Of a DNA stretch of 64,000 nt, positions 38,987-62,442 are shown piece by piece. The stretch spans positions 62,001-126,000 of the forward strand of contig JAPWJW010000001.1 in NCBI GenBank assembly GCA_028283825.1, read 5' to 3'. Below the pieces are notes generated by a model. It worked only from the letters and a program-made list of their open reading frames with translations. It ran no database searches and was not told the origin of the DNA. Both the position numbers and the translations under genes were made by a program. The DNA is from Azospirillaceae bacterium (lineage in GTDB: Bacteria; Pseudomonadota; Alphaproteobacteria; Azospirillales; Azospirillaceae). Positions within the stretch are counted from its first letter, which is position 1. Each line of letters opens with the position of its first letter.

Positions 38987-40105
38987 TCATCCCAGCGCGC
39001 TGATGAAGGTGCGCAGCTTGGTGGCCGTCTCGACATGTTCCTTCTCAGGGTCGGAATTGGCGACGATGCCGGCGCCCGCAAACACCGTGGCCACGTTCCC
39101 GGTCACGACGCCGCCCCGCAGGACCAGCACCCACTCGCCATTGCCCTCGGCGTCCATCCAGCCGATAAGGCCGGCGTAGAACCCCCGGTCGGCGGTCTCC
39201 AGGTCGGCGATGGTCTGGCGGGCGATCTCTTGCGGCCAGCCGCCGACGGCGGGGGTGGGGTGCAGCGCGTACATCAACTCGATGGGCGACACGCCGGGGC
39301 GCAGGACCCCGGTGATGGGCGTGCCCAGGTGCCAGATCACCGGCGTTTGCACCAGCTGCGGCTCACGCGGCACCTCGACATGGTCGGCGTAGCGGCGGAA
39401 GGTCTCGCCCACCGCCTGCACGACGTGCATATGCTCCGCCAGATCCTTGCGGGAGCCCAGCAGGGCGCGCGCCGCTTCCCGATCCGCGAATTCATTGGCC
39501 GCCCGGGGTGAGGAACCGGCCAGGGGCAGGCTGCGGATCATGCGGCGGTCACTGCCCAGCACCAGTTCCGGGCTGGCGCCCAGCACGACCGCGGAACCGG
39601 CGTGCCCGGGATCGACGGGCAGATCCATGCGGTAGACATAGGCGTTGCGGTTCTGGGCGCAGAGGCGCGCGTACACGCGGTCATCATCAAAGGGCGAAGC
39701 CGCCTCGACGGTCACGCTGCGGGCCAGCACCACCTTGTCCAAGGTCCCCGCCTGGATACGCCGAAGGGCCTCCGCGACGGATGCCCGGTAGGCGGGTGAA
39801 TCGCCACCCCTGACCTCCACCGGTTCCGCCGGCCGGTCGCCCTCGGGCGACGGGACGGAATCGGCCTTGCCCCAGTCCACGCCGGCGGGAACGTAGAACA
39901 CGCCCGGCGTCGCGCTATCGAAAGGCACCAGGCCGATGACGATGGGCTTGGCCCCGCCCCGCCCCGCCTTGACGGCCGCCGCCAGCGCCGCGTCGACGGC
40001 ATCGGCCACGCAGGCGCCCTCCCATCGGGCGGGTGTCACCCTGTGCGCGACACCGCGGGCCCGCAGCCGGTACTTCGGCGTCGTCAGATCGAATCGAGCG
40101 TTCAC
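38987..40105 (-). CDS. Isochorismate synthase (EntC/DhbC/PchA family)
   Basis: Converts chorismate to isochorismate, the first committed step to 2,3-dihydroxybenzoate or salicylate. From the GTG at 40105 (site GGAGATG six bases upstream) the protein is 372 residues, near the usual 390. Its start, FDLTTPKYRLRARG, lines up with EntC-type N-termini. Family motifs are present: LDKVVLARS (general-base Lys), GASPELVLG (general-acid Glu), LAGSSPR, HPTPAVGGWP, RGFYAGLIGW and GAGIVANSDPEKEH. The frame stays open to an ATG at 40384, but that overlaps the promoter and its extra residues look non-coding. The LAGS...DLAEH pattern is EntC-like rather than like the bifunctional salicylate synthases. No isochorismatase, pyruvate lyase, DHB dehydrogenase or aryl-AMP ligase is in the window. 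Confidence 0.93.
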   Translation of the reverse strand: MNARFDLTTPKYRLRARGVAHRVTPARWEGACVADAVDAALAAAVKAGRGGAKPIVIGLVPFDSATPGVFYVPAGVDWGKADSVPSPEGDRPAEPVEVRGGDSPAYRASVAEALRRIQAGTLDKVVLARSVTVEAASPFDDDRVYARLCAQNRNAYVYRMDLPVDPGHAGSAVVLGASPELVLGSDRRMIRSLPLAGSSPRAANEFADREAARALLGSRKDLAEHMHVVQAVGETFRRYADHVEVPREPQLVQTPVIWHLGTPITGVLRPGVSPIELMYALHPTPAVGGWPQEIARQTIADLETADRGFYAGLIGWMDAEGNGEWVLVLRGGVVTGNVATVFAGAGIVANSDPEKEHVETATKLRTFISALG

Positions 40106-40290
40106 GCAGTCATCTCCGCCCTGCCGCCCCGCAAACGCGTCGCCTCGCCCTTGAAGGCGGCGATCACGCCCAGGTGCCGGCCGGCACGATCTGTTGAAAG
40201 ACGGCGGCGGACGCGCCGATGCGGAATAGCCACCCGGCCATCGCGAAGTCCGTCCGCCTGTGGTTCGGAATACGTGAGCCCTGTTCCCAT
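40102..40290 (-). CDS. Small open frame (62 aa) in the leader of the isochorismate synthase gene
   Basis: ATG at 40290; its TGA overlaps the GTG start of the synthase (GTGA), the same coupling style used throughout the locus. It lies inside the roughly 260-base stretch between the putative promoter and the synthase start. The product is basic (IPHRRVRRRLSTDRAGRHL, then GVIAAFKGEATRLRGG) with no signal peptide and no family I recognise. The ribosome site is weak (GGGGG about 11 bases upstream). It may be a coupling leader, a remnant gene or chance. Confidence 0.3.
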   Translation of the reverse strand: MGTGLTYSEPQADGLRDGRVAIPHRRVRRRLSTDRAGRHLGVIAAFKGEATRLRGGRAEMTA

Positions 40291-40341
40291 GATCGAAAGA
40301 CCCCCGGGTTACCTCCCGGCGCCAGGGCGCGGGACATGTAT

Positions 40342-40364
40342 GCAAATGCGTATCGTTCGCGTTA
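40342..40364 (-). promoter_or_regulatory. Fur-like box downstream of promoter A
   Basis: The sequence GCAAATGCGTATCGTTCGCG is an AT-rich imperfect inverted repeat with GCAAATGCG/CGTTCGCG half-sites. It lies just inside the expected transcript start, as at the other three promoters. It is the weakest of the four Fur-like matches together with the one at promoter B. Confidence 0.4.
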
Positions 40365-40373
40365 TTAATTCCC

Positions 40374-40404
40374 CTATAATACAAACGGGACGGTCACGTC
40401 TAGT
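40374..40404 (-). promoter_or_regulatory. Promoter A with TetR-type operator, for isochorismate synthase and exporter
   Basis: Read on the - strand: CTAG, then the 15-base near-palindrome ACGTGACCGTCCCGT (40385-40399), then TTG and the -10-like TATTATAG (40374-40381). The same order and spacing occurs at three other places in the window. The operator fills the -35 to -10 spacer, so a bound repressor would block the polymerase. Start site and binder are inferred. Confidence 0.7.
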
Positions 40405-40840: not shown

Positions 40841-41037
40841 AATTATAGCCGCGGATTGGCTGTTGCACCTTGAAGCGCGGGTGCCAACCGGCCTAATCGC
40901 CCCACCCAAGCCCCCAAGGTATTCCCAAGCAATCCAATCAAACTTCGGCGGTTTTGCGGCCTTTCCTGCGGAAGCGAGGGCCGGCCTGGTCCCGACTTCG
41001 GGGCCTCCGAAAGACCGCCGTCACCCGGGAGATCGCT

Positions 41038-42651
41038 GTGAACACCATTCCAGACAGAGTCACGGCCGTCGCGGCGCGCACGCCGGATGCCATCGCCGTG
41101 ACCGCCGGCGACCGAACGCTGAGCTACGCCGAATTGGAGATGCGCGCCAATCGGTTGGCGCGACAGTTGATCGCGGCCGGTGCCGGCCCCGGCCGCATCG
41201 TCGGCGTCGCCCTGCCGCGATCCGCCGACCTGGTGGTGGCCCTTCTGGCCGTGCTGAAATCCGGTGCCGCCTACCTGCCGCTTGACCCCGCCTATCCGGC
41301 GGCGCGCCTTGAGTACCTGATGACCGACGCGCGGCCGGTGGGCATCATCACCGCGCCGGGCGTGCGGATCCCGGACATCGGGCTGCCCCGGCTGGAGTTC
41401 GCGCCCGATGAGGGCGAAGGCGAAGACACGTCCGCCATCGGCGACCGCGACCGGCTTTCCCCCCTGGGGCCCGATCACGCCGCCTACGTCATCTACACGT
41501 CGGGCTCCACAGGGCTGCCCAAAGGCGTGGTCGTCCCCCACCAGAGCTTCCTGGGGCTTCTGGATGTCACCGTGCCCCTGTTCGACCTGGGCGCCGACGA
41601 CGTCTGGACGGTGTTCCATTCCTACGCCTTCGATTTCTCGGTCTGGGAGATCTGGGCGCCGCTGCTGACCGGCGGCAGGACGGTGGTCGTCCCGGCGGAG
41701 GCCACATGGTCGCCCCACGACCTGCTGGACCTGCTGGCGGCCGAGCGGGTCACGGTGCTGAACCAGACGCCGTCCTCGTTCGCATCGCTGGACCGTGCCG
41801 ACGCGGAACGGGCCAGGTCCCTGGATGCCCTGCGGCTGGTGATCTTCGGTGGCGAGGCGCTGGACCCGGCGCGGCTGAACAGCTGGTTCGCCCGCCGGCC
41901 ACGTCGCCCGCGCATGGTGAACATGTACGGCATCACAGAAACGACGGTGCACGTCACGGCGTTCGACGTGCGGCCGGGCGCCAACCAAGCGGCCGCCGAA
42001 AGCCCCATCGGCCGGCCCCTGCCCGGTTTCCGCGACCATGTGTTCGACGCCGGCCTGCGACCGGTCGCAAATGGCCAGGTGGGTGAGCTCTACCTGGGGG
42101 GCATCCAGCTCGCCCGGGGCTATCTCGGCCGGCCGGGGCTGACCGCCACGCGCTTCGTCGCCGACCCGGACGGTGATGGCGACCGGCTGTACCGGACCGG
42201 CGACCTGGTGCAACGGACCGGCGACGGGCTGGCCTTCATCGGCCGCGCCGACACGCAACTGTCCCTGCGCGGCTTCCGGATCGAGCCGGGCGAGGTCGAG
42301 GCGGCCCTGGACGCCTATGAGGGTGTGACGGCCAGCGCCGTCGCGGTGAAGCCCGATCCGGACGGCGTGGCCGGGGATGAATGCCTGGCCGCCTATGTCG
42401 TCACGGTCGGCGGTGAGATCGATGAGCGCGGCTTGCGGATCCATCTGGCCCAGACCCTGCCCGCGCATCTGATCCCCAGCCACATCGTGTCCCTGCCGGC
42501 ACTGCCCCTGACCCCGAACCGGAAGCTCGACCGAGGGGCGCTCGTCCCCCCGCCGCCCCGGAAGAACCCCAAGGCCGATCTGCGCGGGGAACTGATCCGC
42601 CGCCGCCTGGCCAACCGCCCCGAGCAATCACGAGAGGAAGTCCGCCAATGA
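41038..42651 (+). CDS. Stand-alone NRPS adenylation domain, threonine code
   Basis: The GTG at 41038 follows GGGAG at good spacing and gives 537 residues beginning NTIPDRVTAVAARTPD; an upstream ATG frame adds residues that look non-coding. It is a complete A domain: YTSGSTGLPKG, FDFSVWEIW, NMYGITETT, YRTGDL, GRADTQLSLRG, and the closing Lys in LTPNRKLDRG. The pocket residues read D-F-W-N-I-G-M-V-H-K, the canonical threonine code. It has no carrier or condensation domain, so it must load Thr onto another protein. The next gene, overlapping by ATGA, has a Cy domain, two carriers and only the tail of an A domain, so it is the likely partner. No MbtH-like helper is seen in the window. Confidence 0.93.
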   Translation: MNTIPDRVTAVAARTPDAIAVTAGDRTLSYAELEMRANRLARQLIAAGAGPGRIVGVALPRSADLVVALLAVLKSGAAYLPLDPAYPAARLEYLMTDARPVGIITAPGVRIPDIGLPRLEFAPDEGEGEDTSAIGDRDRLSPLGPDHAAYVIYTSGSTGLPKGVVVPHQSFLGLLDVTVPLFDLGADDVWTVFHSYAFDFSVWEIWAPLLTGGRTVVVPAEATWSPHDLLDLLAAERVTVLNQTPSSFASLDRADAERARSLDALRLVIFGGEALDPARLNSWFARRPRRPRMVNMYGITETTVHVTAFDVRPGANQAAAESPIGRPLPGFRDHVFDAGLRPVANGQVGELYLGGIQLARGYLGRPGLTATRFVADPDGDGDRLYRTGDLVQRTGDGLAFIGRADTQLSLRGFRIEPGEVEAALDAYEGVTASAVAVKPDPDGVAGDECLAAYVVTVGGEIDERGLRIHLAQTLPAHLIPSHIVSLPALPLTPNRKLDRGALVPPPPRKNPKADLRGELIRRRLANRPEQSREEVRQ

Positions 42652-45131
42652 GCGCCAACAACCGCCAGTGGGTGCGCACCGTCGTCGCCGACATCCTGGC
42701 CGAGGATCCCGCGGCACTGGCCGACACGGAAAACCTGTTCGAAGCGGGCCTGGATTCCATCGGGCTGCTGCGCCTGGTCAACCGCTGGCGCCGCGACGGC
42801 ATCCAGGTCAGTTTCGCCGAACTGGCGCAGGATCCCACGCTGACCGCCTGGACCGCGCTGGTGGATCGGGAACGGGCCGGCCCCGGCGGTGGCACCCCCG
42901 CCGTGACGGAAACGCCCGCCGCCGCCCCGGCCGACAGCGGATCGGCGCCACTGGGGATCATGCAGCACGCCTACTGGGTCGGGCGCAGCCCGGGGCAGAG
43001 GCTGGGCGGCGTGGCCGCACACCTGTATGCCGAGTTTGACCGGCCCTCCACCGGCGGCGGCCCGGCCATCGACCCAAACGCCCTGCGATCCGCCCTGGAG
43101 CGCCTGATCAAGCGGCATGAGACGCTGCGGACGCGCGTCACGCCGGATGGCCGGCAAGAGGTGTTGGCGACCCTGGCGCCGCCGCTGGCCGTGCACGACC
43201 TGCAGGACCGTTCCGCCGCCGAGGTGTGGAGCCATCTGGCGAAGGTACGGGCCGCCTTTTCCCACCAGATGCTGGATGTGGAGGAGGGACAGGTCTTTGC
43301 GGTCGCCCTCAGCCTGCTGCCCGACGGCGCCACCCGGCTGCATGTCGATGTCGACATGATCGCCGCGGACGCCGTCAGCTATCGCCTGCTGCTGGCCGAC
43401 CTGGTGGCGCTGTACATCGCACCCGCGAAGGGCTTGCCGCCGCTGGGCCTGACCTACCGCCAACACCTCGCGACCACCGAGACCGGCAAGGCGGATCGCG
43501 CCCGACCGGCGGCGGAAGCATGGCGGGACAGGCTGGCCACCCTGCCGGGCGCGCCCATCCTGCCCGAACTGGTCCAGGCCACCGAGGAATTCCCCCAGCC
43601 GGCGGTCGCCCGCCGCCACGTGTGGCTGTCCCCGGAACGCAAGCACATGCTGACCGACATCGCCCGCCGGAAGGGTGTCACGGTGGCCATGGCGGTGGCG
43701 ACGGTCCTGGCCGAAGTGGTCGGCCATTGGAGCGCCACCGACCATTTCCTGCTGAACGTCCCCATGTTCGACCGGCCGGCGAACCATCCCGACATCGACC
43801 GCGTCGTCGGCGATTTCTCCAGCTCGGTCATGCTGGAGGTGGATCTCCGGCAGTCGCTGGCCTTCGTCGACCGGGTGCGGGCCTTGCAGCAGCGGATGCA
43901 CGCAGATGCCGCGCACGCCGCCCACACTGGGCTGGACGTGCTGCGCGATCTCAGCCGGCAGCGGGGCGAGACCGTGCTGGCGCCCGTCGTGTTCACCAGC
44001 GCCCTGGGTTTGGGTGAGCTGTTCGCGCCGGCCGTCACGGAAATCATCGGCCGGCCGGTGTGGGTGGTCTCGCAAGGGCCGCAGGTCCTGCTGGACGCCC
44101 AGGTCACCGAATTCGACGGCGGCCTGCTGGTCAACTGGGACACGCGGGAGGAAGCCCTGGTGCCCGGCGTGGTCGATGCCATGTTTGCCGTGTTCCAGAC
44201 GGCGCTGCAGCGCCTGATCGACCAGCCGGAAACCTGGAACCAGCCCCTGGCGCTTTCCGACCAGAATCCGCGTCGCACCCATGAGGGCCATCTGGTCCGC
44301 GTCGTCGATCCGTTCGAACAAAGCCGCCCCGCCCACGTCCCCGGCCGCCTGCGGGTCATGGGCGAGGACGTGCTGGGCGACCAGCCGGGCGCCATCCGTT
44401 GGGCACGGGCCGACGGCGATGGCCGGGTGACCGTGCTGGGCCGGGACCATGACCGGGTGGAGGTCAACGGCGTCCCGGTATTCCCCGCCGAGGTGGAAGA
44501 GGCGGTGCGATCCGCCCCCCAAATCCGCGACGCGGCGGTCGTCCGCATCACGGACACCCAGGGGGACGGCCTGGTGGCCGCGGTGGTCTTCGCGGCGCCC
44601 ACGGGTGAGGAAACCGCCGGCAAGGCGTTCCGCGCCTATCTCGCCCGGCGGATTCCGGCCCATCTCCTGCCCACGCGGGTCATCGTCCTGAACGAACTGC
44701 CGCGCGACGCCGCCGGCGTGATCGAGGCCGAAATCCTGCGCCAGGCCTCCCTGGCGCAGGCCGAGCCGGCCGGCGGCGTGGCCCCGCGCACCGACCTGGA
44801 ACGCGTCATCGCCGGGGTCTGGGCCGAGGTGCTGGGCCTGGAGCAGGTCGGCGTGAATGAGGAGTTCATCGCCCTGGGCGGCGATTCCCTGCTGGCCGCC
44901 CGCGTGGTGGCGCGCCTGCAGGAGGAATTGGACACCCACGCGATCACGCTGCGCGCCCTGTTCCGGTCCCCCACCATCGCCGAGCTGGCGGAGCAACTGC
45001 GCCGGGATGACGACCCCGGCCGGCTGGACGAGGTGGCGGCCATCATCCTGGAAATCCGCGCCATGTCGGATGAGGACGTGGCCGCCCAGCTGGGCGAGGC
45101 GCCGGTCCTGCGGCAAGAGGCCGTGGCGTGA
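42648..45131 (+). CDS. NRPS, 827 aa: aryl carrier-Cy-(A remnant)-T
   Basis: The N-terminal carrier (Ser37 in EAGLDSIG, then NRWRRDGIQVSFAEL) looks like the aryl carriers of EntB-type siderophore systems. A heterocyclisation domain follows (about 105-540); the usual HHxxxDG is replaced by the Cy signature DxxxxD (D236-D241, DMIAAD). Next is only the last fifth of an A domain (about 560-700: GRDHDRVEVNGVPVFPAEVEE, with A10 reduced to LPRDAAGVIEAEIL and no catalytic Lys). A second carrier follows (about 712-790; FIALGGDSLLAA), then a 40-residue tail. The expected reaction joins an aryl acid to Thr and closes an oxazoline ring, with Thr supplied by the preceding free A domain. Which ligase loads the aryl carrier is unknown; none is in the window. 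Confidence 0.9.
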   Translation: MSANNRQWVRTVVADILAEDPAALADTENLFEAGLDSIGLLRLVNRWRRDGIQVSFAELAQDPTLTAWTALVDRERAGPGGGTPAVTETPAAAPADSGSAPLGIMQHAYWVGRSPGQRLGGVAAHLYAEFDRPSTGGGPAIDPNALRSALERLIKRHETLRTRVTPDGRQEVLATLAPPLAVHDLQDRSAAEVWSHLAKVRAAFSHQMLDVEEGQVFAVALSLLPDGATRLHVDVDMIAADAVSYRLLLADLVALYIAPAKGLPPLGLTYRQHLATTETGKADRARPAAEAWRDRLATLPGAPILPELVQATEEFPQPAVARRHVWLSPERKHMLTDIARRKGVTVAMAVATVLAEVVGHWSATDHFLLNVPMFDRPANHPDIDRVVGDFSSSVMLEVDLRQSLAFVDRVRALQQRMHADAAHAAHTGLDVLRDLSRQRGETVLAPVVFTSALGLGELFAPAVTEIIGRPVWVVSQGPQVLLDAQVTEFDGGLLVNWDTREEALVPGVVDAMFAVFQTALQRLIDQPETWNQPLALSDQNPRRTHEGHLVRVVDPFEQSRPAHVPGRLRVMGEDVLGDQPGAIRWARADGDGRVTVLGRDHDRVEVNGVPVFPAEVEEAVRSAPQIRDAAVVRITDTQGDGLVAAVVFAAPTGEETAGKAFRAYLARRIPAHLLPTRVIVLNELPRDAAGVIEAEILRQASLAQAEPAGGVAPRTDLERVIAGVWAEVLGLEQVGVNEEFIALGGDSLLAARVVARLQEELDTHAITLRALFRSPTIAELAEQLRRDDDPGRLDEVAAIILEIRAMSDEDVAAQLGEAPVLRQEAVA
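44310..44750 (+). other. A-domain C-terminal remnant lacking its core
   Basis: About 145 residues resembling the small mobile lobe of an A domain sit between the Cy domain and the second carrier. The whole N-terminal core with ATP-binding and substrate motifs (A1-A7) is missing, and the A10 Lys position is not Lys. It may act only as a spacer or as a docking surface for the free threonine A domain. Confidence 0.75.
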
Positions 45132-46489
45132 TCGCGGATCGACGCGCACTGCTGCGGGAACGCCTGGCGTCGGCGGGACTGCGCGGGACGACGGACGTCC
45201 AGGGGGTGCCGCGTCGCGGCACCCCCGAGCGGGCCCGCCTGTCCTTCGCGCAAGCGCACACCTGGCGGTATGAGCGCGCCCATCCCGGCAGCGTCAGCAA
45301 CAATTTGGGCCTGCTTCTGACCTTCACGGGCGAAGTGGATGAGAACGCCCTGGTGGCGGCGATGACCCGCGTGGTCCAGCACCACGAGATCCTGCGCACC
45401 ACCTATCACACCGGGCCGGACGACGATTCCTTCCAACGCATCCACCCCACCCTGCCGTTCCCCTGCACCGTCACGCGGGCCAGCGCCGATGACGCCGTCG
45501 CGGCAGCCCAATCCGCGCTGTGCGCGCCCTTCAACCTGGAGAGCGACGCGCCGCTGCGGCTGCTGGTGTTCCGCACGCAGGCCGACCAGGTCATGGCGGC
45601 GATCATCGTGCACCACATCCTGTGGGACGGCGCCACCTTCGACGTGCTGTCGAAGGAATTGGAACAGGCCTACGCGCAGCCGTCGGTGGCCCTGCCCGAC
45701 CTGCCCATCCAGTACGCCGACCTGGCGGAATGGCAGCGTGACCAGCACGCCCGCATCCGCGACGGCCACCTGGCCTATTGGACGGGACGGCTGGCGGCCC
45801 CCCGCCCGCCGCACACCCTTTCAAGCGCCGGGAAGGCCGCCGTCTCGGAATCGGCCGGCCGCGTCGATTACCGGCTGACTGCCGCCGCGGCCCTGGCCCA
45901 ACTGGCGGCCCGGAACAAGGTGACGCCGTTCGTGGCCTTCCTCGCCTGCTGGGCGGCGGTCCTGGGACGGGAGGGCGTGGCCGAGGTAACGGTGGGGACC
46001 ACCGTGCTGACCCGCGACCAGCCGGGTGCCGACGGGCTGATCGGCAACCTGGCCAATCACATCGTGCTTCGCCTGCCCGTCGGCGTGGCGCCGGAATCCA
46101 CGGCCTTGGTCGCCGCGACGGCCCGGGAATTCGACGCCGCCCTCGCCCACCGTGACCTGCCCTTTGAGGATATCACGGACGCGTTGGGTGGGCAGGACGT
46201 GGGGGCCCCGCCCACGCTGTTCGATTCCCTGGTCATCTTCATCCCCGGCGGAACCGACGGCCCGCGCCTGCCCGGCGCCCGGACGCGCTGGCGGCGCCTG
46301 CACAACGGGGCGACGCAGTTCCCCCTGGTTCCCCTGGGGATCGAGGTATTCGTGCGCGGCCGGGGTGCGGAGGCGGTGATCGACGTCGAGGCGACCTACG
46401 CCCGCAACGCGTTTGACATCAAAACCATCAACGAACTTCTCGCCCGTCTGGACCGGACCATCCACGACGCGGCGCGGGAGGTCTGGTGA
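45128..46489 (+). CDS. Free-standing NRPS condensation domain, 453 aa
   Basis: GTG at 45128 overlaps the previous stop (GTGA). After a linker of the type found before many C domains (RRALLRERLASAGL) there is one complete C domain: SFAQAHTWRYERAHP, HHEILRTTY, the catalytic HHILWDG (about residues 162-168), YADLAEWQ, and VGTTVLTRDQPGADGLIGNLAN. No carrier or A domain is attached. It presumably forms an amide between the oxazoline acyl group on the preceding T domain and an amine, either the next aminoacyl carrier or a free diamine. The product of the nearby decarboxylase is a possible acceptor; this is inference. Free C domains are used this way with soluble amines in several phenolate siderophore systems. 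Confidence 0.9.
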   Translation: MIADRRALLRERLASAGLRGTTDVQGVPRRGTPERARLSFAQAHTWRYERAHPGSVSNNLGLLLTFTGEVDENALVAAMTRVVQHHEILRTTYHTGPDDDSFQRIHPTLPFPCTVTRASADDAVAAAQSALCAPFNLESDAPLRLLVFRTQADQVMAAIIVHHILWDGATFDVLSKELEQAYAQPSVALPDLPIQYADLAEWQRDQHARIRDGHLAYWTGRLAAPRPPHTLSSAGKAAVSESAGRVDYRLTAAAALAQLAARNKVTPFVAFLACWAAVLGREGVAEVTVGTTVLTRDQPGADGLIGNLANHIVLRLPVGVAPESTALVAATAREFDAALAHRDLPFEDITDALGGQDVGAPPTLFDSLVIFIPGGTDGPRLPGARTRWRRLHNGATQFPLVPLGIEVFVRGRGAEAVIDVEATYARNAFDIKTINELLARLDRTIHDAAREVW

Positions 46490-46493
46490 CGCC

Positions 46494-49400
46494 ATGAACG
46501 CACGCCTTGAACTCCTGCGGCGCCGGCTGGGCCAAACCGGCCCGGCGCGCGCCGGCATCCCCCCGCGTCCCGACCCGGACACGGCACCACTGTCGGCGCC
46601 GCAGCATCGCATGTGGCTGCACCAGCAGCTGTATCCGGCCAGCGCCGCCTACAACGTGTGCATCCGCATCGACCTGGCCGGCGATCTTGACGAGGACCGG
46701 CTGCGGGCCGCGCTGGCCGAAATCGTGAACCGGCATGAGGTGTTGCGCACGACATATCCGGCGGGTGCCGACGGCCGCCCCCACCAGCGCATCCACCGCC
46801 ACCTGCCGCCACCGGTGCGCATCGTCGAAAGCGCCGACCCGGCCCAGGTGGCGCGCGACGCCGCCGCGCAGCCGTTCGACATCGCCACGTCCGGCTCCAT
46901 ACGGTTCCACCTGGTGCGGGTGGGCGCCCGCCAATGGTCGCTGGTGCTGACCGTGCACCACATCGTCTGGGACGGCGGCTGTTTCGGGGTGTTCAGCCAC
47001 GATCTGGGCCTGGCCTATCGCGGCGATGGCGCCACACCGCTGGCCATCCAGTACGCCGACATCGCCGCGCACGAGGCGCAGCATGAGGCGGCGGCGTCCA
47101 CCGACCTGGACGGGCAGCTGGACCATTGGCGCCGCACCCTGACGCCCCCGCCCCCGGCGCTGCCCCTGCCGTCCCTGCGGCCCTTCGGCCCCGAGGTGGG
47201 GGAGCGGGCGGAACGCCTGGACCGCACATTGCCGGCATCTGGCGCCAAAAGCCTGCGCGCGGCCGCCGCTGCCCTGCGCACCACGCCCTTCGTCGTGTTC
47301 TGCGCCGCCTATGGCCTGCTGCTGCGCCGTTGGACCGGCGAGACCGACATCACCGTGGGCACCATGGTCGCCAACCGCCATCAGCCGGGTACCCGCGAAC
47401 TGATCGGCAACTTCGGCAACACGGCCCTGCTGCGCCTGGACACGTCCGGCGATCCCACGGTCCGCCAGTTGGTGGCGCGCGCCGCCCACACCATCACCGG
47501 CACGCTGGGCAACGCCGACATCGCCTTTGAGCGGGTCGTGGCTGACCTGGCGCCCGCGCGGGAGCCGGGCCACGGCTTTTTCACCGACACGCTCTGCCTG
47601 TTCCTGGACCGTGAGATCGGGGGGCCCGACCTGCCCGGCGTGGACGTGCGGTGGGACAACGTGCCCAACGGCGCCGCCCCCTTCGCCCTCACCTTCCAGG
47701 GTTTCATGAACGGGGATCTGCTGCGGGTGGAGGCCACATACCGCAGCGAACTGTTCGCCCCGGCGACCGTGAACCTCATGCTGGAACATCTGGAGGCAAT
47801 CCTGCTGGCGGCGACGGCCGACCCGGACCAGCCCTGCTCCACCGCCAGCCAGTTGCCCGCCGGCCAGCGCGACCATCTCGCCCGGCTGTCGGCCGGTGTC
47901 GCCACCGACCGGCCCGCCGCCTCCGTTCTGGGCCATTGGCGCCGCCGGGCCGCCGCCACGCCGGACCGCACGGCCCTGGTGCACGGCGGCCGGCGCTTCA
48001 GTTATGGCGAGATCGACCAGGGTGCCAACCGGCTGGCGGCGCGACTGATTGAACGGGGCATGCGGGCGCAGGACATCGTCGCCGTAGCGCTTGCCCGGGG
48101 GCCGTCCACCCTTACAGCCCTGCTGGCCATCTGGAAATGCGGGGCGGTCTATCTTCCCCTCGACCCCCATCATCCCAAGCCGCGTCTGATTGATCTGCTT
48201 TCCCAGGCGGATGCGCGGTTGGTGATCGGTGACGCCGCCCTGGACCTGGGCGGCGTGCCTTGCCTTGTCGCCCACCAGGCGGGGCCGGTCGCAATCGATC
48301 CCGGCCACCAGCCCCACGCCCTGGAGGCCGCCCACATCGGCTTCACCTCCGGCTCCACCGGGGGCCCTAAGGGCGTGGTGACCACCCATGGTTCATTGGC
48401 GGCCCGCACATCGTGGGTCGCGGCCCATTGGCCCGGCGGGACGGGCGGCGCCCGCCTGGCCAAAAGCGCGCCCACCGCCATCGACGCGGTGGCGGAGCTT
48501 TGCGAGGGCCATCACCACCGGCGAAGTCCTGGTGCTGGCGACGGATGAGGAGGCGCGCGACGCCGCCGCCCTGGCCCGGCTGCTGGAAACCCACAGCATC
48601 GGCCATGTCATGGCGGTGCCGGGGTTGATCCAGGCGGTGGCCATCGCCGCCCCCGGTGTCATCAGCGGCCGGGACCGCGTGCTGTCCACCGGCGAGCCGC
48701 TGTTCCCCGGCACGGCCGGCGCCATCCATGACACGGCCCCGGGCGTGCCCCTCTACAACTCCTATGGCTGCACGGAGACCACCGGCGATGTCGCCGCCGG
48801 GCCGGTGAGCGCCGGGGACGCCCAAAACGGCATCGTCCCCATCGGCACCCCACTGCCCGGTTCATTCTGCCATGTGCTGGGCCCCGACCTGGTGCCGGTG
48901 CCGCCCGGCGTGCTGGGCGAAATCTATGTCGGTGGGCCGCAGTTGGCCCGTGGCTACCTGGCACAGCCGGCCCTGACCGCGGCCCGGTTCGTCGCCAGCC
49001 CGTTCGAAGCCGGGGGCCGGCTCTACCGCACCGGCGACCTGGCGCGCTGGCGTGACGACGGGCGCCTGGAACTGGCCGGCCGCAGCGACGATCAGGTGAA
49101 TGTGCGCGGCCATCGGGTGGAACCGGCGGAAGCTGTGGAGGCCCTGCACGCCCTGCCCAACGTGCGGGAGGCCGCCGTGCTGCCCCGCGCCGTCGGCACC
49201 ACCACGGAACTGGTGGCCTATGTGGCCGGCGACGGGCTGGGACCGGATGACGGCCCCCAACTGCGCCAGCAGCTGGCGCGCACCCTACCGGGCCCGCTGG
49301 TCCCCGCCGAGGTGGTGGTCCTGCCGCACTTACCCCGGTTGAACGGCGGCAAGATCGATAGGCAGGCCCTGCTGCGCCGCCCGGCGACACCCCGTGCACC

Positions 49401-50667
49401 CGCCACGGATACGCCGCCCCCACCCAAACCGCCGCAAAATGACCGCGAGGCGGCCTTGGCCGGCATCCTGTGCGCAGTGCTGGGGCGCCCGTCCGTGGGC
49501 ATGGACGACGACTTCTTCGCGTTGGGTGGGGATTCGCTGCTGGCCGTGTCCTTCGCGGCCCGCGCCCATGCGGCCGGCATGAGCTTCCCCGCGGCAGCCG
49601 TCTTCCAATACCCCACCATCGCGCAACTGGTGCGGCAACTGCCTCCACCCCGGGAAGAAAAGGCGGTCGCCCTGACGCTGCCACCGCAGACGCATCGCTT
49701 CCGCCTATCCGGCCTGCCCGTGCAGGACTTCGTCTCCTGGGAGGCGCTGCGCGGGCCGGTCGATACGGACCGGCTGCGGCGCGCGCTGACGGAAACCATT
49801 GCCCGGCATGCCCCCCTGCGCCAGGCGATCAGCACGCGCGGCCGGCTGTGGCGCGCCACCCAGGCGCCGGCCACCAATGGCGACGCCATGGTGATCGAGA
49901 TTGGAAACGCCGATGCCGGCCGGGCGCTGGAGATCGCGGCCCAGGCCATCGACATCGCGGCGGGCCGCGTGATCGTAGCCCTGGTCACGGCCGACGCGGC
50001 CTTGCTGGCGGCACACCCCACCGTGATCGACGGCCTGTCGCTGGCCAGGATCGCGGGAGAGATCGATGGGCAAACGCAGGACCCGCCGCCACCCCAACCG
50101 GCTGGACAAGCGGCGGCCACGCCACCCGCGCATTGGGACGCGGTCCTGGGCGCCGGGCCGGAAAGCCCTTGGTGGGTCGGCCCCGATGACCCGCCGCCGG
50201 CGAGCCCGCATGCCCGCGCCCGCGCGGTGACCGACACCACCGACGCATCAATCCTCGCCGGCACACTGCTGCGCGCCGTCCGCACCCTGTCCGGGCGGGA
50301 GGCCGCCGTGGCCGATGTCGAGGTCGATCCCGAGCTTGTCGGGCCGCTTGTCGCCGTTCCGGTCATCAGCCAGACGGGCAGGGAAATGATCATCGGCGAC
50401 GCCGCCGCCTACACCGCCTACCTGTCCAACCGCCGGCCGGTGGCCGGGGGGCCTGGCATCCTCATCCGCCGCACCGTGGCGCCAGAGCCCTGGCAGGCCG
50501 GTGGCATCGCCCGGGGCGCGGATCGCCTTTACCACATCGTCGCGTCCTGGCAGCGGCTGGGCGGCCGGACGGTGCTGGAAGTCGCGGCCCATGAGCCCGG
50601 CGTCGCCGAAGCGCTGGCGGCCACCTGGGCAGAAGCCCTTTCAGGCCGGGAGCGTGCCCATGGATGA
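46494..50667 (+). CDS. NRPS C-A-T with degenerate C/E-like tail, broken by a one-base frameshift at about 48507
   Basis: ATG at 46494 (MNARLELLRRRLGQTG) four bases after the previous stop. C domain (about 46590-47850; HHIVWDGG), A domain (about 47930-49380; FTSGSTGGPKG, NSYGCTETT, YRTGDLARW, LNGGKIDRQ) and T (about 49430-49640; FFALGGDSLLAV). The A domain is split between frames: one reads to DAVAELCE, the other resumes at AITTGEVLVLA; deleting one G from the GGG at 48506-48508 joins them (about 1390 residues). Even then the A4 motif is one residue short, beside the first pocket residues, so I do not predict a substrate. After T comes a 300-residue domain of the C/E superfamily in which HHxxxDG has become HPTVIDG, probably inactive. 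If the frameshift is real, the A domain is lost. Confidence 0.85.
48504..48510 (+). other. Frameshift site (apparent one-base insertion) inside the A domain
   Basis: At GAGGGCC the upstream frame reads E-G-H-H-H-R and loses A-domain homology. The next frame reads E-A-I-T-T-G-E-V and keeps it. Removing one G restores the frame. The G run makes an indel sequencing error plausible, but the local motif being one residue short leaves a real lesion possible. Confidence 0.8.
49690..50640 (+). other. Degenerate condensation/epimerisation-like domain
   Basis: Follows the T domain of the C-A-T protein. The stretch DTDRLRRALTETIARHAPLR has the fold pattern of the C superfamily N-lobe, and HPTVIDGLSLARIA stands where HHxxxDGxSW is expected, with the catalytic second His replaced by Pro. 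The usual Q-rich first motif is missing. It is probably catalytically dead. Confidence 0.65.
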
Positions 50668-52144
50668 GCTGTGGGTGGATGACGCCCCCCTCGCCACGCA
50701 TCTGGCGCTGCTGAGCGGCAAGGGGCGGTGCCACAATTTCCACGCCGTGCCCTGGGCCGGCATCCTGGACGCGGTCCCCGCCGAATTCGCGCGGGCGTAC
50801 CGCACCCTGCTGGGCACGAACCTGCCGCTGATCGACGGCAGCTGGGCGGGCGGAACGGTGGATTCCTTCTTCGCGCCGGACGGGCCGCTGGCGGCGGCCC
50901 AGCAACTGGCGGCGGACGCCTTCGGCGCCGACGCGACCTTCTTCGGCACCAGCGGCACCACCACCAGCAACCGCATCGCGCTGGCCTCATTGCGCCATCC
51001 GGGCGCGCGGATCCTGATGGATTGCACCGCCCATCAATCGCTGCTGTTCGCGGCGGAGGAGATGGCGGTGACACCCACGCCCGGCACCGGCCGGGAAGAC
51101 GACGCCTGCATCGACGTCGCCGCCACCGCCCGGCTGCTGGCCGACCATGCCGTCCAGGGCCGGCCTTTCGACGCCCTGGTGCTGTCGGCCACCGGGTATG
51201 ATGGCCGGCGCCTTCGCCTGGACCAGGCGCTGCCCCTGCTGGCCGCCGCATCCCCCGCCACGGCGCTGGTGGTCGATGAGGCCTGGTCGGCGCTGCATGC
51301 CTTCGCGCCGCAAACGGCTGGATCGACCGCGCTCGCGGTCTGTTCCGGCCTGGAGCGGCAGGCGCCCGTGCTGGTCACCCAATCGGCCCACAAGACCATG
51401 GCGGCCCTGCGCCAGGGTTCATACCTGCACGTGCTGGGGTCGCCGGACGATGTCGCGCGGGTGCGGCAGGCGACCTACCGCATCCACACCACCTCGCCAT
51501 CCTGGCCCATCCTGGCCTCGCTGGACCTGGCCCGGCAGCATGCCCAGCGGTACGGCGCCACGGCGTTCGCGCGTGCCGTCAAGCTGCGCGCCGGTCTGGA
51601 AGCGGCCCTGCGCCGGGACCCGGCGACGACGGCCCTGCTTGCCCCAGACCCGCAGGACCCGTTCCACGACACCGATCCGCTGGTCCTGCGCCTGCACGTC
51701 GGCCAGGGGGCCCGCGCCCTGCGGGACTGGCTGTTCGCCGAACACAATGTGCTGGTGAAGATCGCCGGCGACCGCTTGATCGTGCGTGTGCATTTGGGCG
51801 TCACCGCCGCCGACGTGGATGCCCTGCTGAACGGCCTGCGGGACCTGGCGGCCGGCGCCGGCCCCACCCGTGCCGACGCCCGACCGATCCGCGCCGCGCA
51901 CCTGGAACCGGCCATCGGCAGCCGCAGCCGCGGCTACATCATCCCCTACCCACCCGGCGTGCCGCTGGCGCGGCCCGGCGAGATATGGACCGCCCGGCAC
52001 GCGGCGGCCCTGGCCCATGAACGGGCGCGGGGCGCGGAGATCCACCACCTGCCGTCCGGCCGGGGCAACGCCCCGGATGACCAATCCCCCGGCGATCCCG
52101 CCATCGCCGAACCCGATTTTTACAGCGCTGGAGCAGACAGATGA
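50660..52144 (+). CDS. PLP-dependent Orn/Lys/Arg decarboxylase-family enzyme, 494 aa
   Basis: ATG at 50660 overlaps the previous stop by 8 bases (ATGGATGA) and follows GGGAG. The fold-type-I pattern of the OKR decarboxylase family is clear: FFGTSGTTTSNR (phosphate/cofactor loop), VVDEAWSALHAF (Asp to the PLP nitrogen), QSAHKTMAALRQGSYLHV (PLP lysine) and, at the C-terminus, RGYIIPYPPGVPLARPGE, the hallmark of the small domain. At 494 residues it matches the short, wing-less form rather than the 700-residue inducible enzymes. The expected reaction is decarboxylation of a basic amino acid to a diamine or agmatine; the exact substrate cannot be read. Set inside the NRPS operon with ATGA coupling downstream, it probably makes an amine building block for the siderophore, much as histidine decarboxylase does for pseudomonine and acinetobactin. 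Confidence 0.85.
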   Translation: MDELWVDDAPLATHLALLSGKGRCHNFHAVPWAGILDAVPAEFARAYRTLLGTNLPLIDGSWAGGTVDSFFAPDGPLAAAQQLAADAFGADATFFGTSGTTTSNRIALASLRHPGARILMDCTAHQSLLFAAEEMAVTPTPGTGREDDACIDVAATARLLADHAVQGRPFDALVLSATGYDGRRLRLDQALPLLAAASPATALVVDEAWSALHAFAPQTAGSTALAVCSGLERQAPVLVTQSAHKTMAALRQGSYLHVLGSPDDVARVRQATYRIHTTSPSWPILASLDLARQHAQRYGATAFARAVKLRAGLEAALRRDPATTALLAPDPQDPFHDTDPLVLRLHVGQGARALRDWLFAEHNVLVKIAGDRLIVRVHLGVTAADVDALLNGLRDLAAGAGPTRADARPIRAAHLEPAIGSRSRGYIIPYPPGVPLARPGEIWTARHAAALAHERARGAEIHHLPSGRGNAPDDQSPGDPAIAEPDFYSAGADR

Positions 52145-55100
52145 CCCTCTCGAACCGCAAGCAGCAGCTGTTGCAGCAGAGGCTGGCCAGCGCCGGCCTG
52201 CGTTCTTCCGAACAGTCGCCGGCGACCGACCATCCCCGGCACGAACAGCACGAGGGGCCGGCACCCCTGTCGTCGGCGCAGCGCCGCATGTGGTACCTTG
52301 CCCAGTTGGCCGAGGGTTCAGCCGCCTATAATTTCTGCCTGCTGCTGCGGCCGGCGGACAGCACTGCCCCCCTGTCCGCCGACGCCCTGACCGCCGCCCT
52401 TGAGCAGGTGGTGCGCCGGCACGAGATCCTGCGCACCCGCTATCGCCCCGGGACGGGCGGCACCCCGGAACAGGTGGTGGAGCCCCATCTGCCCCCGCGC
52501 ATCACCGACATCGACCTGGGACCGGGGACGGCAGCACTTGCCGACCGGCTGGACGACCTGGCACGCCAAGCGCGGGATGAACCGTTCAACCTGGAGACCG
52601 ATGCCCCCCTGCGCGCCATGTTCGTCCGCGATGGCGACACGGTCGTCGCCGTCATCCTGGTCCTGCCGCACATCGCCGGCGACGGCGGGTCCTTCGGCAC
52701 CGTGCTGACGGATCTGACGCGCGCCTATGGTCAAGGCGATCTGCCGCCGGCACCCGACATCCGGTACACGGACTACGCCCTGTGGGAGGGCCGGCGCCTG
52801 GGTGAACCTGGGGATGCGGCAAGCCTGCACGCCCGGCAGTTGCGCTTCTGGGGGGAACGGCTGGCCGACCTGCCGGTGGAACTGTCGCTGCCGTTCGACC
52901 GTCCCCGTCCGGCCAACCCCAGCTTCGCGGGCCAGCAAATCCGGCAATGGCTGGGGACCGGCCTGTCGGCCGCCCTGCGCCGCACGGTCAAGGCCCAGGG
53001 CGGTACCCCGCTGGTGGCGCTGCAATCCGCTGTCGCCGTGGCCCTCGCCCGTGTCGGCGCCGGACTGGACATCCCGCTCGGCACGCCGGTCGATCTGCGC
53101 CAGAACGCGACCCTGGACCAGGTCATCGGCTTCTTCAGCAACACGGTGGTGGTGCGCACCGACCTGACCGGCGACCCGACCTTCGCCGACCTGCTGCGCC
53201 GCGTGCACGACAGCGGCCTTTCCGCCCTGGACCATCGCGACGTGCCGTTCGACAATGTGGTGGAGCATATCAACCCACCCCGCGCCGCCGCCCGCAACCC
53301 GCTGTTCGGCGTCATGGTCACGGCCACCCGCCCCTGGCCCGCCCTGGACCTCGGCGGCACCCCCATCATCCTTGAGGAACCCCGGCAGACCCAGGCCAAG
53401 TTCGACCTGACCTTCGTCATCCATGATGAGGGGGGCGAGGGCCGGATCGGCGTTTCCCTGCTGTACGCCTGCGACCTGTTCGATGAGGCCACCGCCCGGC
53501 AGTTGTTTGAACTGGTGATCGGCATGCTGGGCCAGGGCGTGCACCACCCGGCGCTGCGCCTGTCCCAGCTGGCGGAATTCGGGCACGGGCGTCTGGACGA
53601 TGCGGCGGCGGATCTGGCGGGGATTCTGGCGGCATCCGCCCCACGTGCCACCGCCCGCGCCATCCGGCTGGCGACGGACGCCACCGACGCCGACATCGCC
53701 GCCGCCCTGGCAGGATTGCTGGAACGGCACGACGCCCTGCGCCTGCGCCGCGATCCGCTGACCCGGCGGTGGGATCTGGCGACCGCCGCCGACCTGTGGG
53801 ACGCGCCGGTCCTGCGCGATGCGCCGCCGGCCACCGGCGACGCCGACCGGTTCATGGCCTGGGTGCGGAATGACGGCGGAGAGGCCGCCCATGGCACGCC
53901 GCGCATCCTGGAACTGCGGGCGCCGGGCGTCTGGATCGACGATGAGTCATGGGGTGCCCTGCTGGCAGACCTCACAGCCGTACGGGCCAACGGTGGGGCG
54001 GCACCGCCCCCCACCTCGGGCAGTTATGCCGCCTGGCTGGACCGCACCGCCGCCCTGGCGGCCCGACCCGAGATAGCTGACCACGCCGAAGCCTGGCTGG
54101 ACATGCTGGAAGCGGCGGAGGATCGCACACACGCCCTTCCCACCGACACGTTCCATACCGTGGTAGGCAAGGTGGCGCTACCATCCTTGGGCGCGTGGCC
54201 CGACCCGGTGGCCCTGCGCACCGCCGCCGTGGCGGCGATGCTGAACGTCCGGCGCGGTTCCACCGCCCCCTTCCTCATCCAGATCGACGAGCCGGACCGG
54301 GACCGTTCCCGCACCGGCGGCGCCGATACCGTCGTCGGCCGGTGCCGGCGGACCTTCCCCCTGCTGGTCTCCCCTCCAAGTGAAACCGCCACCGGGGCGG
54401 ACGCGCTGCTGACGGCGGCACGCGACATCCTTGCCGCCTGGAACATGGACGGCATCACGGGTGACCGCGCCATCTCTTACCTGTTGGCCCGGGACGTCAG
54501 TCCGCAGGTCGCCGGGACATTCGATGAAGCGCCGGTGCCGGACGTGACGCTCAGCCTCACCGTGACCGATCCGGGGGATGAGCGGGACACCCTGCCCCCC
54601 GCCCGCCTTTCCGAACAGGACGGGGAACATTGGGCCATCCGGGTGGAGCCCCATGGACATCGGGCGACCCTGACTATCCACGCGCCGCGCGCCGTCGGCG
54701 AAATCCAGGACCAGGTCACGGCGTGGACCGCCATCTTCGCCCAGCTCACCGACGCCGTGGCGGCCGGTACGGCACCTGCCGGCGGCGAACAGGCCCAGGA
54801 CGATTTGGGCCTGGCCTTGTCCCGCTGGGACCACCGCCGCCTGGAAGAGGCGTTCGGCCCCCTGCGCGAGGTGCTACCCCTGTCGCCGCTGCAGGAAGGC
54901 CTGCGTTTCCACGCCGTCGGCACATCGGACGGTGCGGCGGAGGTCTACATCTCCCAGACATCGCTGGACCTGATGGGGGAAATCGACGCCGACCGGCTGC
55001 ACCGGGCGGTGCGCCGGGCCACCGAGCTGGCGCCATCCATCACCGCCGGCTTCGCCGAGATCGGCGGGACCATGGTCCAGGTGATCCCCGCCGGCATCGA

Positions 55101-58100
55101 CATCCCCTGGCGGTCGGAAAGCGCAGCCGACGCGCATGACGCCGCCCGCATCGCGGACGAGGAATACCGGGCGCCATTCGACGCGGCGCGCCCGCCCCTG
55201 ATCCGCTTCGCCCTGGTCCGCCTGCCGGCCGGGGATCATTACCGGCTGCTGCTGACCACGCACCACATCCTGCTGGACGGCTGGTCGATCCGCCTGCTGT
55301 TCCGCCTGGTCATCCGGCTGTACGGCGATGCCGCCGCCGTTTCCGCCCCGCCGCCGTTCCGCCGCTACCTGAGCTGGCTGACCGACCAGAAGGTGGCGGA
55401 TGCGGAAGCGGTGTGGCGCGACGTGCTGGCCGGCGTCCAGCCCACCCTGCTGTACCCGGCGGCGCGCAGCCTGGAGGCCAGCGCCGACCGCAGCGAGGAA
55501 CGGACGGCCAGCGTCGGCCCCGACCTGACCGCCGCCCTGGCAGCACTGGCGCGATCCGCCGCCACCACCTTGAGCACGGTGCTGGAACTGGCCTGGGGCG
55601 CGCTGCTGATCCGGATGAGCGGCACGCCGGACGTGGTGTTCGGCAACGTCGTCTCCGGCCGGCCAGCGGACATCGCGGATGTGGGTGAGATCATCGGCCT
55701 GTTGTTCAACACCATGCCGGCGCGGGTGCAGGCCAGCGGGGACCAGTCGGTCCGCGCGGCCTTGCGCGCCCTGCATCAGCAGAAGGCGGTCTCGCTGGGG
55801 CATTCCAACGTCAACCTGGCGCGCCTGCAACAGATCGCCGGGCACAGCCCCCTGTTCGACACGCTGTTCGCGGTGCAGAATCTGCCGGTCCTGGACCTGC
55901 CCGACCAGACCGAAATCCGGATCGGCGACGCGCACGTCCGCGACGCCACCCACTATCCGCTCAGCATGGCGGTCACACCCACCGACGGCGCCATCGGCCT
56001 GCGGCTGATGTTCCGCAACGACGTGGTGACGGCGGACCAGGCCGAAGCCCTGATCCAGGCCTACATCCGCCTGTTCGAAGCCTTCGTCCAGTCCCCCGAC
56101 CTGCCACTGCTGACGCTGGACGCGCTGCCGGGGGACAACCCCCTGCTACCCCCGTCGATATCGGGGGAGGCGCTGGAGATCGGCACCCTGTCCGTCGCCG
56201 ACCTGCTGGTGCAGCAGGTGGCGCGTACCCCGGACGCCACCGCCATCGTGGCCGGCGAGACCCGCCTGACCTATCATGAGCTGTCATCGGCGGCCCACCG
56301 GCTGGCCCATATGCTGCAGGCCTGCGGTGTGCAGCCCGAACACCGGGTGGCGCTGCTGCTGCCCCGGTCGGAATTGATGATCGTGGCGATGTTCGCAGTG
56401 TTCGCCGCCCACGCCGCCTATGTCCCCATCGACACGGCCACGCCGGCCGGCCGGATCGGCGCCATGCTGGACCGGGCCCAGCCCACGGTCATCCTGACCG
56501 CCCGGTCGCTGGCCGACCAGCTGCCGCCCGAATACCGGACCGACCCGCGCGTGGTCATCCTGGACGGCAACGATGCCCGGCGCGCGCTGGCGGCCCACCC
56601 GACGACACCGCCACGCACCGAACGCCCGGCCGGCCTGGACCACCTTGCCTACATCATCTTCACCTCCGGCTCGACCGGGGAGCCCAAGGGTGTCGCGGTG
56701 CCCTATCTCGGGCTGACCAACATGTTCGTCAATCACCAGAAGGCCATCTTCGCGCCCGTCCTGGCGGCCCAGCAAGGCCGCCGCATCAGGATCGCGCACA
56801 CCACCTCGTTCGCCTTCGACGCCTCATGGGAACAGCTGCTGTGGCTGCTGGCCGGCCATGAGGTGCATGTGATCGACGATGATCTGCGGCGCGACCCGGA
56901 CCGGTTGCTGCCGATGTTCGACCGCGAGCAGATCGACGCCTTCGACGTCACCCCCACCTACGGCGAATACCTGGTCGAACATGGGCTGCTGGACCGCGAT
57001 CGCCCCAACGGGCGGCCGGGCACCGGCGTCGTCTTCGTCTCGCTGGGGGGCGAGGCGGTGGGTGAGGCGCTGTGGACCCGCCTGCGGGAGGCGCCGGGCC
57101 TGGACGCCTACAACCTCTATGGGCCCACGGAATACACCATCAACGCCCTGGGCGCCGATCTGGCGGACAGTGCGGCCCCCACGGTCGGCCGGCCCATTTC
57201 CAACACCGACGCCCTGATCCTGGGGCCCGGGCTGCTGCCGTCGCCCGTCGGCGTCACCGGTGAGCTTTATTTGGGCGGCGTCGGCCTGGCCCGGGGGTAT
57301 GTCGGCCGCGCCGCCCTGACAGCGGAACGCTTCATCGCCAACCCCTTCAATCCCAACGGCGCCCGGCTGTACCGCACCGGCGACCTGGCCCGCTGGCGGC
57401 CCGACGGCAACATCGACTACCTGGGCCGGTCGGACAACCAGCTGAAGATCCGGGGATATCGCATCGAACCCGCCGAGGTGGAGAACGCCCTGGTCGCGAT
57501 TGCCGGCGTGAGGCGGGCGGCGGTGCTGGGCCGGCCGGGGCAGGACGGCGCCCTGCGCCTGGTCGCCTATGTGGTGTGCGACCCGACGGCGCCAGATGCC
57601 GAGACGCTGCGGGACCAGCTGCGGTCGCGCCTGCCGTCCTACATGGTGCCGGCGGCCATCGTCACCGTCGATGACCTGCCCCGCAACATCAATGGCAAGC
57701 TGGATGCGGCGGCCCTGCCCATTCCGGCGGCCGACGACACCAGGTCGGCACCGCCGCTGACCCCGACCGAACGCGCCATCTGCGACGCCTTCGCCGCCGT
57801 GCTGGAGCGTCCTTCGGTCGGCCGGTTTGATGATTTCTTCGATCTGGGCGGCCATTCCCTGCTGACGGTGCGCCTGGTGGCCAGGCTGCGGGACACCGTC
57901 CACCCGGACATCGGCGTGCGGCGGATCTACGACCACCCCACGCCGGCCGCCCTGGCGGCGACCCTTCAGGCGGCGGCACCTGAAGCAGCCGGCAATGATG
58001 ACCGCGACGTCGCCTTGATGCTGGCCGACGCCGTGCTGCCGCCGGACATCACGATAACCCGGCCCGCGACCGCACCATCCCGGCCAAGGCTCGCCAGCCT

Positions 58101-62428: not shown

Positions 62429-62442
62429 GGCGGCGGGATCCC

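Follow-up and report, generated by a model that had tools for sequence, protein, structure and literature searches.

Phenyloxazoline synthetases of the MbtB type, which we take to comprise those for mycobactin and nocobactin together with their Streptomyces and Pseudonocardia relatives, presumably follow the domain order ArCP-Cy-A-PCP. In yersiniabactin synthesis, HMWP2 and HMWP1 contain Cy-PCP modules without an A domain, and these rely on an A domain at another place in that assembly line, which supplies several carriers; no stump of an A domain is known in these Cy modules. The A domain of the pyochelin synthetase PchE, which takes Cys, is interrupted. With regard to activation by a separate protein, the available part of PMC12005286 describes BasA of acinetobactin biosynthesis as a separate Thr-activating A protein that charges BasB with Thr in trans, and the available part of PMC8949500 describes stand-alone A-containing proteins that serve a module without a working A domain in syringomycin (SyrB1), albicidin (Alb04) and enduracidin/ramoplanin biosynthesis.

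In the present work, a 64,000-nucleotide stretch of DNA (the window) from an Azospirillaceae genome of 7.16 Mb was found to carry the gene for a free-standing adenylation (A) domain next to a gene for a T-Cy-T protein, in which a C-terminal part of an A domain, here called the stump, is left between the Cy domain and the second carrier. Judging from sequence comparisons, we consider it probable that the two genes form a salicyl-methyloxazoline module working in trans, in which an MbtB-like ancestor lost its A core and an unrelated Thr A domain took over.

The gene pair and its surroundings

The free A protein scored 291 bits with Pfam AMP-binding and was also matched by AMP-binding_C, and it exceeded the cut-off of the AA-adenyl-dom model TIGR01733 with 429 bits. 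Its core motifs are those of NRPS A domains, with A3, A8 and A10 (Lys present) among them (YTSGSTGLPKGV, NRKLDR), and its specificity code by alignment reads D-F-W-N-I-G-M-V-H, which bears out the original prediction of a free A gene with a Thr code. We take DFWNIGMVHK to be the Thr-specific code and, from DFWNIGMVH, conclude that the protein probably activates Thr. The same code was found in six Rhizobium/Agrobacterium relatives (L074, L075, L079–L082), and the form DFWN(I/V)GMVH in 11 of 13 free A domains, Pseudoalteromonas having DFWNVGMVH (three) and DFWNIGMVH (one); the exceptions are Pseudonocardia (DFWSVGMVH) and the decayed L084. The Asub of the window's free A protein had an identity of 0.73–0.84 to that of its relatives. 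The GTG start at 41038 matches the annotated starts of two of the three aligned Rhizobium orthologues (L075 and L079), the third (L074) being annotated longer, and an in-frame TTG at 40954 offers a longer alternative start. The stop overlaps the start of the Cy gene as ATGA at 42648–42651; this overlap is not universal, the two genes being 21 bp apart in R. tumorigenes.

The free A protein ends in a C-terminal tail (window ~42570–42648; ADLRGELIRRRLANRP) that is kept in Rhizobium, where it is of the LRxELLRRR type, and similar, in a looser form, in Pseudonocardia and Pseudoalteromonas. This tail is a candidate for an alternative docking element or helix.

As predicted, the overlapping gene encodes a Cy domain, two carriers and only the C-terminal lobe of an A domain (Table 1). 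Pfam placed Condensation at residues 140–450 and AMP-binding_C at 615–690, and neither Pfam nor the alignments revealed an AMP-binding core, a complete in-line A domain thus being absent from the protein. Both carriers keep their Ser (GLDSI and GGDSL); the first is expected, from sequence, to be the aryl (salicyl) carrier, and the second to accept Thr and the (methyl)oxazoline. The Cy domain belongs to the MbtB-type lineage in the Cy trees, and D236, D241 and S244, presumably its catalytic motif, are intact. Compared with full relatives, the stump has lost A1–A5, the A6–A7 stretch (GVAxGY...YRTGD) and the A10 Lys, according to an alignment that showed 12 of the full-A Asub domains. The claim that the stump is without its catalytic Lys is true of the window, where Val stands at the aligned position (PRDAAGV), and is not true of the stump family as a whole, since a Lys lies at or beside the A10 position in two of nine stumps (R. 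etli L075 and Rhizobium L080).

Table 1. Coordinates of the gene pair, its domains and the neighbouring genes in the window
Feature	Position	Strand	Basis
Isochorismate synthase family protein (DhbC/EntC-like)	38987..40384	-	Profile matches
Free-standing Thr (predicted) adenylation protein, 537 aa; complete Acore + Asub, A10 Lys, C-terminal tail	41038..42651	+	Pfam; code; 75% to Rhizobium orthologues
T-Cy-(A stump)-T protein, 827 aa; 4 bp overlap with free A gene	42648..45131	+	Pfam; 66–67% to Rhizobium orthologues; AlphaFold2
First carrier, residues ~8–72, GLDSI	42669..42863	+	Pfam; Rhizobium alignment; aryl role presumed
Heterocyclization (Cy) domain, residues ~100–536	42945..44255	+	Pfam; D236/D241/S244 intact; PchE 7en1 structural match
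A-domain stump, residues ~543–704: strands around A6, then A8 + Asub fold	44274..44759	+	Alignments; folded model; Foldseek; VIA
Second carrier, residues ~720–783, GGDSL	44805..44996	+	Pfam; low dN/dS; acceptor role presumed
Stand-alone condensation domain, next in operon	45128..46489	+	Pfam; Rhizobium orthologue 62%
C-A-T NRPS gene, next after stand-alone C; frame change ~48496–48509 within A domain	46494..50652	+	tblastn with uninterrupted Rhizobium proteins
OKR-decarboxylase-like (OKR-decarboxylase-fold) protein, operon-conserved	50681..52072	+	Pfam; Rhizobium comparison
Terminal NRPS: two condensation-type domains, A, T, NAD_binding_4 (thioester reductase-type)	52141..59226	+	Pfam; 65% to Rhizobium
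TonB-dependent receptor	60272..62428	+	Pfam
Periplasmic binding protein (Peripla_BP_2)	62374..63606	+	Pfam

From its gene content, we read the locus as a salicylate/hydroxamate siderophore cluster. Beyond the window end lie ABC transporter genes and genes for a Lys/Orn-monooxygenase-type protein, MbtH, a salicylate synthase, a hydrolase and an aryl-AMP ligase. The salicylate synthase (L047, 4778–6256) reached 397 bits with TIGR03494 (cut-off 325), and the aryl-AMP ligase, ~7 kb past the window in L047, reached 595 bits with TIGR02275, under the DHB cut-off of that model (723.55). By profile matches, genes for the supply and activation of the aryl acid (salicylate) are present in the locus, as in MbtB-type loci. 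The examined Rhizobium records contain the same gene set, with an annotated salicylate synthase, MbtH and SidA/IucD/PvdA monooxygenase, among others.

Two chorismate-using enzymes are encoded in this locus, namely the isochorismate synthase and the salicylate synthase, and this pair is likewise annotated in the examined Rhizobium records. The gene after the stand-alone C gene also starts with a condensation domain, which places two C domains between carrier 2 and the A domain that comes next, and the order in Rhizobium is identical. The OKR-decarboxylase-fold protein matches a Rhizobium ‘hypothetical protein’ (63%) encoded at the equivalent site between two NRPS genes; from sequence, it is possibly a PLP enzyme that forms an amine or modifies a bound intermediate. 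The reading frame of the C-A-T gene switches within the A domain, and the two compared Rhizobium orthologues have a continuous frame. The break would reflect either a pseudogene or an assembly error and, unless it is the latter, this strain may have a pathway that is interrupted after the split module. Directly upstream of the locus, at 76–37438 of the window, lies a separate large PKS-NRPS cluster with a thioesterase at its end. Rfam gave no matches at gathering score over 37000–60500.

Distribution of the split pair

Scans were made of 99 relatives, 385 genomes of the class and 398 genomes of the phylum, which are overlapping sets in which few candidates per genome were scored. The other Cy loci examined in the class scan encoded full Cy-A-T proteins (17 of 17; L057–L073). 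As the scans of relatives and class had given full Cy-A-T proteins only, the split pair could be taken for a unique oddity, a view that was overturned by matches on Rhizobium plasmids: the 8 best records of the plasmid search, all from Rhizobium, aligned with residues 1–817/819 unbroken at 65–67%. In the three of these eight records that were examined for the upstream gene (matches H2–H6 lying outside this examination), the free A gene stood directly upstream in every case.

Among the best 80 of 266 loci in named genomes, 71 had a full A domain, five a stump, one a shorter remnant, and three were stump-less. The stump loci are those of Rhizobium sp. P38BS-XIX, Agrobacterium cavarae, R. paknamense, Pseudonocardia spinosispora and Streptomyces inusitatus (L084, decayed), and the three stump-less loci, with a free A gene and a T-Cy-T protein, are from Pseudoalteromonas. 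Just 23–24 residues separate Cy from carrier 2 in the Pseudoalteromonas proteins (4 of 4 loci), and G574, found in the phylum scan, also combines a free A gene with a T-Cy-T protein and has no stump. With a free A gene taken to be an A-only frame on the + strand whose core scores >150 bits, one was located upstream of 8 of the 9 core-less proteins within these best 80 named loci, the exception being L154 of Streptomyces alkaliphilus, and of 0 of the 71 full ones, counts which refer to related sequences and not to independent events, and which include seven full loci with only ~2 kb or less of upstream sequence. In Rhizobiaceae, Pseudonocardia and the window, at Cy identities down to 58%, the stump has kept its reading frame and its full length. 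As rhizobia and an actinobacterium have the arrangement in common, it is a stable design and did not arise by a sequencing accident.

In the T-Cy-T-Cy protein of S. alkaliphilus (L154, 8905–11688), the remnant is shorter, has a similar junction (RVIDARGRTRPAMVPGEL) and lacks the C-terminal half of Asub; no free A gene was found in its locus. In the decayed pair of S. inusitatus (L084, 7085–11061), most of Asub has gone from the free A, as has part of the code region, and the Cy protein is without carrier 2; a T-Cy-A-T copy is present on another contig of this species (L085). In L172 (G705), Cy is followed directly by a carrier within a cluster with several Cy domains, an arrangement that differs from the split pair, and in L168 and L169, from the phylum scan, no A core follows Cy within the short flanks. 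Judging by these three loci, Cy modules without an A domain also occur in other forms.

Fold, constraint and role of the stump

AlphaFold2 modelled the whole Cy protein with a pLDDT of 84.9 and a pTM of 0.86, and the stump alone with a pLDDT of 87.0; full-A relatives were present in the alignments of both predictions, and the confidence for the stump may partly derive from them. The stump model resembled the C-terminal regions of A domains, and its best match was PheA (1amu, E 1.1e-11) with Foldseek and THR1 (5n9x, Z 11.2, 158 residues, 4.9 Å) with VIA, and the whole-protein model matched PchE (7en1, Z 46.7, 675 residues, 4.0 Å) over model residues 94–788.

The Asub of full proteins had a mean identity of 0.683 and a minimum of 0.58 at Cy identities of 0.65–0.72 (227 pairs), and of 0.771 and 0.669, respectively, at 0.72–0.80 (117 pairs). 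Stump pairs showed 0.46–0.55 in the first bin and 0.53–0.65 in the second, all below the lowest full pair of the bin. At Cy identities of 0.55–0.65, the stump pairs (0.42–0.47) were at or near the low end of the full pairs (mean 0.586, minimum 0.441); L080–L081, the most similar of the stump pairs, was ordinary at 0.82. dN/dS values in nine pairs (Nei-Gojobori, with dS near-saturated) were 0.12–0.62 for the Asub part of the stump, 0.03–0.91 for its N-terminal part, 0.11–1.60 for the carrier–Cy linker, 0.11–0.35 for Cy and 0.01–0.20 for carrier 2, the lowest among the compared domains. These comparisons show a stump that is apparently under weak purifying selection, yet diverging faster than the Asub of full A domains. 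Our reading is that the catalytic constraint on it would be gone, with some constraint on the fold left.

The stump is incapable of catalysis. Most likely, it would persist as a folded structural spacer beside carrier 2, holding this carrier in its native Asub-T setting. Such a role fits the available part of PMC8097286, in which natural NRPS recombination and A-domain exchanges are described as tending to preserve Asub and the Asub-T interface.

It is possible, if unlikely, that the stump is instead a relic without a role, decaying toward the state seen in Pseudoalteromonas. Its fast divergence, the dN/dS of up to 0.91 in its N-terminal part, the stump-less Pseudoalteromonas proteins and the shorter remnant of S. 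alkaliphilus are all in line with decay; however, the stump is predicted to fold, it has been kept in frame and at full length in the lineages listed above, and the dN/dS of its Asub part lies under most values of the carrier–Cy linker.

Quite unlikely, in our estimate, is a scheme in which the leftover Asub would act as a non-catalytic recruiter or orienter of the unrelated trans A domain, with the amino acid exchanged, from that of a DLYNLGLIH-type code to Thr, and the Cy, Asub-T and T-C interfaces untouched, and in which a similar cut near the A5/A6 junction would have occurred at least twice, the second time in S. alkaliphilus. We are likewise rather doubtful about the originally suggested docking platform; in this role, the stump would recruit the free A protein or orient carrier 2 toward it. 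Docking could account for the near-constant distance from the end of Cy to carrier 2 (156–166 residues in eight relatives, L084 being counted to its end, and about 170 in the window), for the derived A8-loop pattern GxPV(W/F)PxEVE shared by most stumps and for the dN/dS below 1 of the Asub part, but Pseudoalteromonas and G574 have the gene pair without a stump, and the short linker in Pseudoalteromonas means that docking there cannot depend on one. Furthermore, the stump diverges faster than the Asub of full proteins at Cy identities of 0.65–0.80, and the free A protein has a complete Asub itself and, in its conserved C-terminal tail, a competing docking element.

Origin of the pair and comparison with known systems

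The Cy trees placed the split proteins among MbtB-like T-Cy-A-T proteins, in agreement with the predicted ancestry from an aryl-carrier-Cy-A-T protein. Here, 14 split rows and three full-A rows (Pseudonocardia, Streptomyces inusitatus and Frankia) formed a 17-row group with support of 97/95, within actinobacterial full-A proteins, and a single origin of the 14 split rows had a support of no more than 69/79; full-A rows were thinned to 30 in the Cy, A-core and Asub trees. Joining L154, which is included in this Cy tree and absent from an earlier one, to the split rows was rejected (AU p 0.0023, the groups of the Cy and free-A AU tests having been named after the first trees were seen), so that the core was probably lost at least twice.

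As to the fate of the A core, described originally as lost or moved to its own gene, our results support loss and speak against a move. The free A cores grouped together (SH-aLRT 99) and lay outside the Cy-A clade, and forcing them together with the nearest Cy-A relatives was rejected (AU p 7.1e-7, in a test with 22 full-A rows and 18 of the 86 C-A cores outside the window). The N-terminal segment of the stump carries the motif R[VI]VDx6PxxVxG, which was picked after the alignment had been inspected and was present in 9 of 9 stumps and 49 of 73 Cy-A domains, and in none of 12 free A or 89 C-A domains. The free-A HMM scored lower than the Cy-A HMM in 9 of 9 stumps, and a generic C-A HMM beat the Cy-A HMM for the window and three other stumps; on HMMs built from window domains, the window’s own scores carry no weight as evidence. 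A tree of Asub only gave the grouping of stump and Cy-A a support of 82, and that of stump and free A an AU p of 0.85, the latter tree being the higher-scoring; this tree leaves the stump unplaced, and its placement rests on the A6-side signature and the HMM contrasts. L084 was excluded from the free-A rows of the Asub tree, the HMM contrasts, the motif count and the free-A AU test. Taken together, the MbtB-type signature of the stump, the separate clade of the free A cores and the rejected grouping argue that the original core was lost and that an unrelated Thr A domain replaced it. The codes of the Cy-A domains are mostly DLYNLGLIH, DLFNLGLIH or DLYNIGLIH and differ from that of the free A, so that the monomer may have changed along with the A domain.

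It is very improbable that the original A domain was moved into a gene of its own and survives as the free A: the two genes are adjacent, and a grouping of the free A with all Cy-A domains was compatible with the data (AU p 0.49), but its union with the expected source, the nearest Cy-A relatives, was the one rejected, and both its code and its A6-side signature are different. An assembly or annotation error that dropped a genuine A core from the gene, which the frame break in the following NRPS gene might bring to mind, has a practically negligible chance, given the same truncation in independent Rhizobium, Agrobacterium and Pseudonocardia assemblies, each examined one with a free A gene.

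Under the preferred reading of core loss and replacement, an internal in-frame deletion would have removed the A core of an ancestral MbtB-like ArCP-Cy-A-PCP protein, the C-terminal lobe being retained as the stump, and a stand-alone Thr A domain encoded just upstream would have taken the place of the lost core. The salicylate synthase and the aryl-AMP ligase, whose genes are present, would put salicylate on carrier 1. The free A protein, probably with the MbtH of the locus, would form Thr-AMP, as its code suggests, and charge carrier 2 in trans. The Cy domain, with its catalytic residues in place, would then perform condensation and cyclodehydration to salicyl-methyloxazoline on carrier 2, which would be passed to the next condensation domain. 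The predicted product is a salicyl-methyloxazoline, hydroxamate-type siderophore common to the Azospirillaceae-type bacterium and rhizobia. From full A domains (71 of the best 80 named loci) through a stump accompanied by a free A to stump-less proteins with a free A, the loci make up a series from in-line to trans activation with intermediates. The split pair is a natural model for monomer exchange via a trans-supplied A domain, and it allows a direct test of the importance of the Asub-T interface once the A core is gone.

The MbtB-type proteins are the closest full-A relatives (44–54% over the best segment among the 71 full loci). They share with the window protein the T-Cy-...-T order, the salicylate-type locus and, in the 49 of 73 cases given above, the signature found in the stump, whereas they have a full in-chain A core, a DLYNLGLIH-type code and a free Thr A gene beside them in 0 of 71 loci. 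PchE (7en1, 7emy), the best structural match over Cy, Asub and the second carrier, has a full A domain. The yersiniabactin modules resemble the window protein in being Cy-PCP without their own A domain and differ in that the A domain lies within the same assembly line. Acinetobactin, known to us by the description in the available part of PMC12005286, is similar in its Cy protein without an A domain and in an oxazoline made from aryl acid and Thr; there, BasD has two Cy domains and the Thr carrier is on BasB, whereas the window protein has one Cy domain between two carriers, and a stump. According to the available part of PMC8949500, albicidin synthesis keeps a dead A domain in place, whereas in the window the in-line A domain is reduced to its C-terminal lobe, and the SyrB1/Alb04-type proteins are A-T proteins for multimodular lines, whereas the free A is a single A domain with no carrier of its own. 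A stand-alone A gene adjoining the A-less acceptor protein, a BasA/SyrB1-like trait, was found in the window and at 8 of the 9 core-less named loci. Sorangibactin, Burkholderia cepaciachelin and kasichelin were considered as precedents and set aside, the available parts of the sources describing free A proteins for salicylate/DHB or Cy-A proteins and not the split arrangement. Activation in trans by a separate A protein is already known. In a search of the literature, with subscription journals mostly outside its reach, the combination of an Asub fossil in a Cy protein with a replacement A domain was nowhere described.
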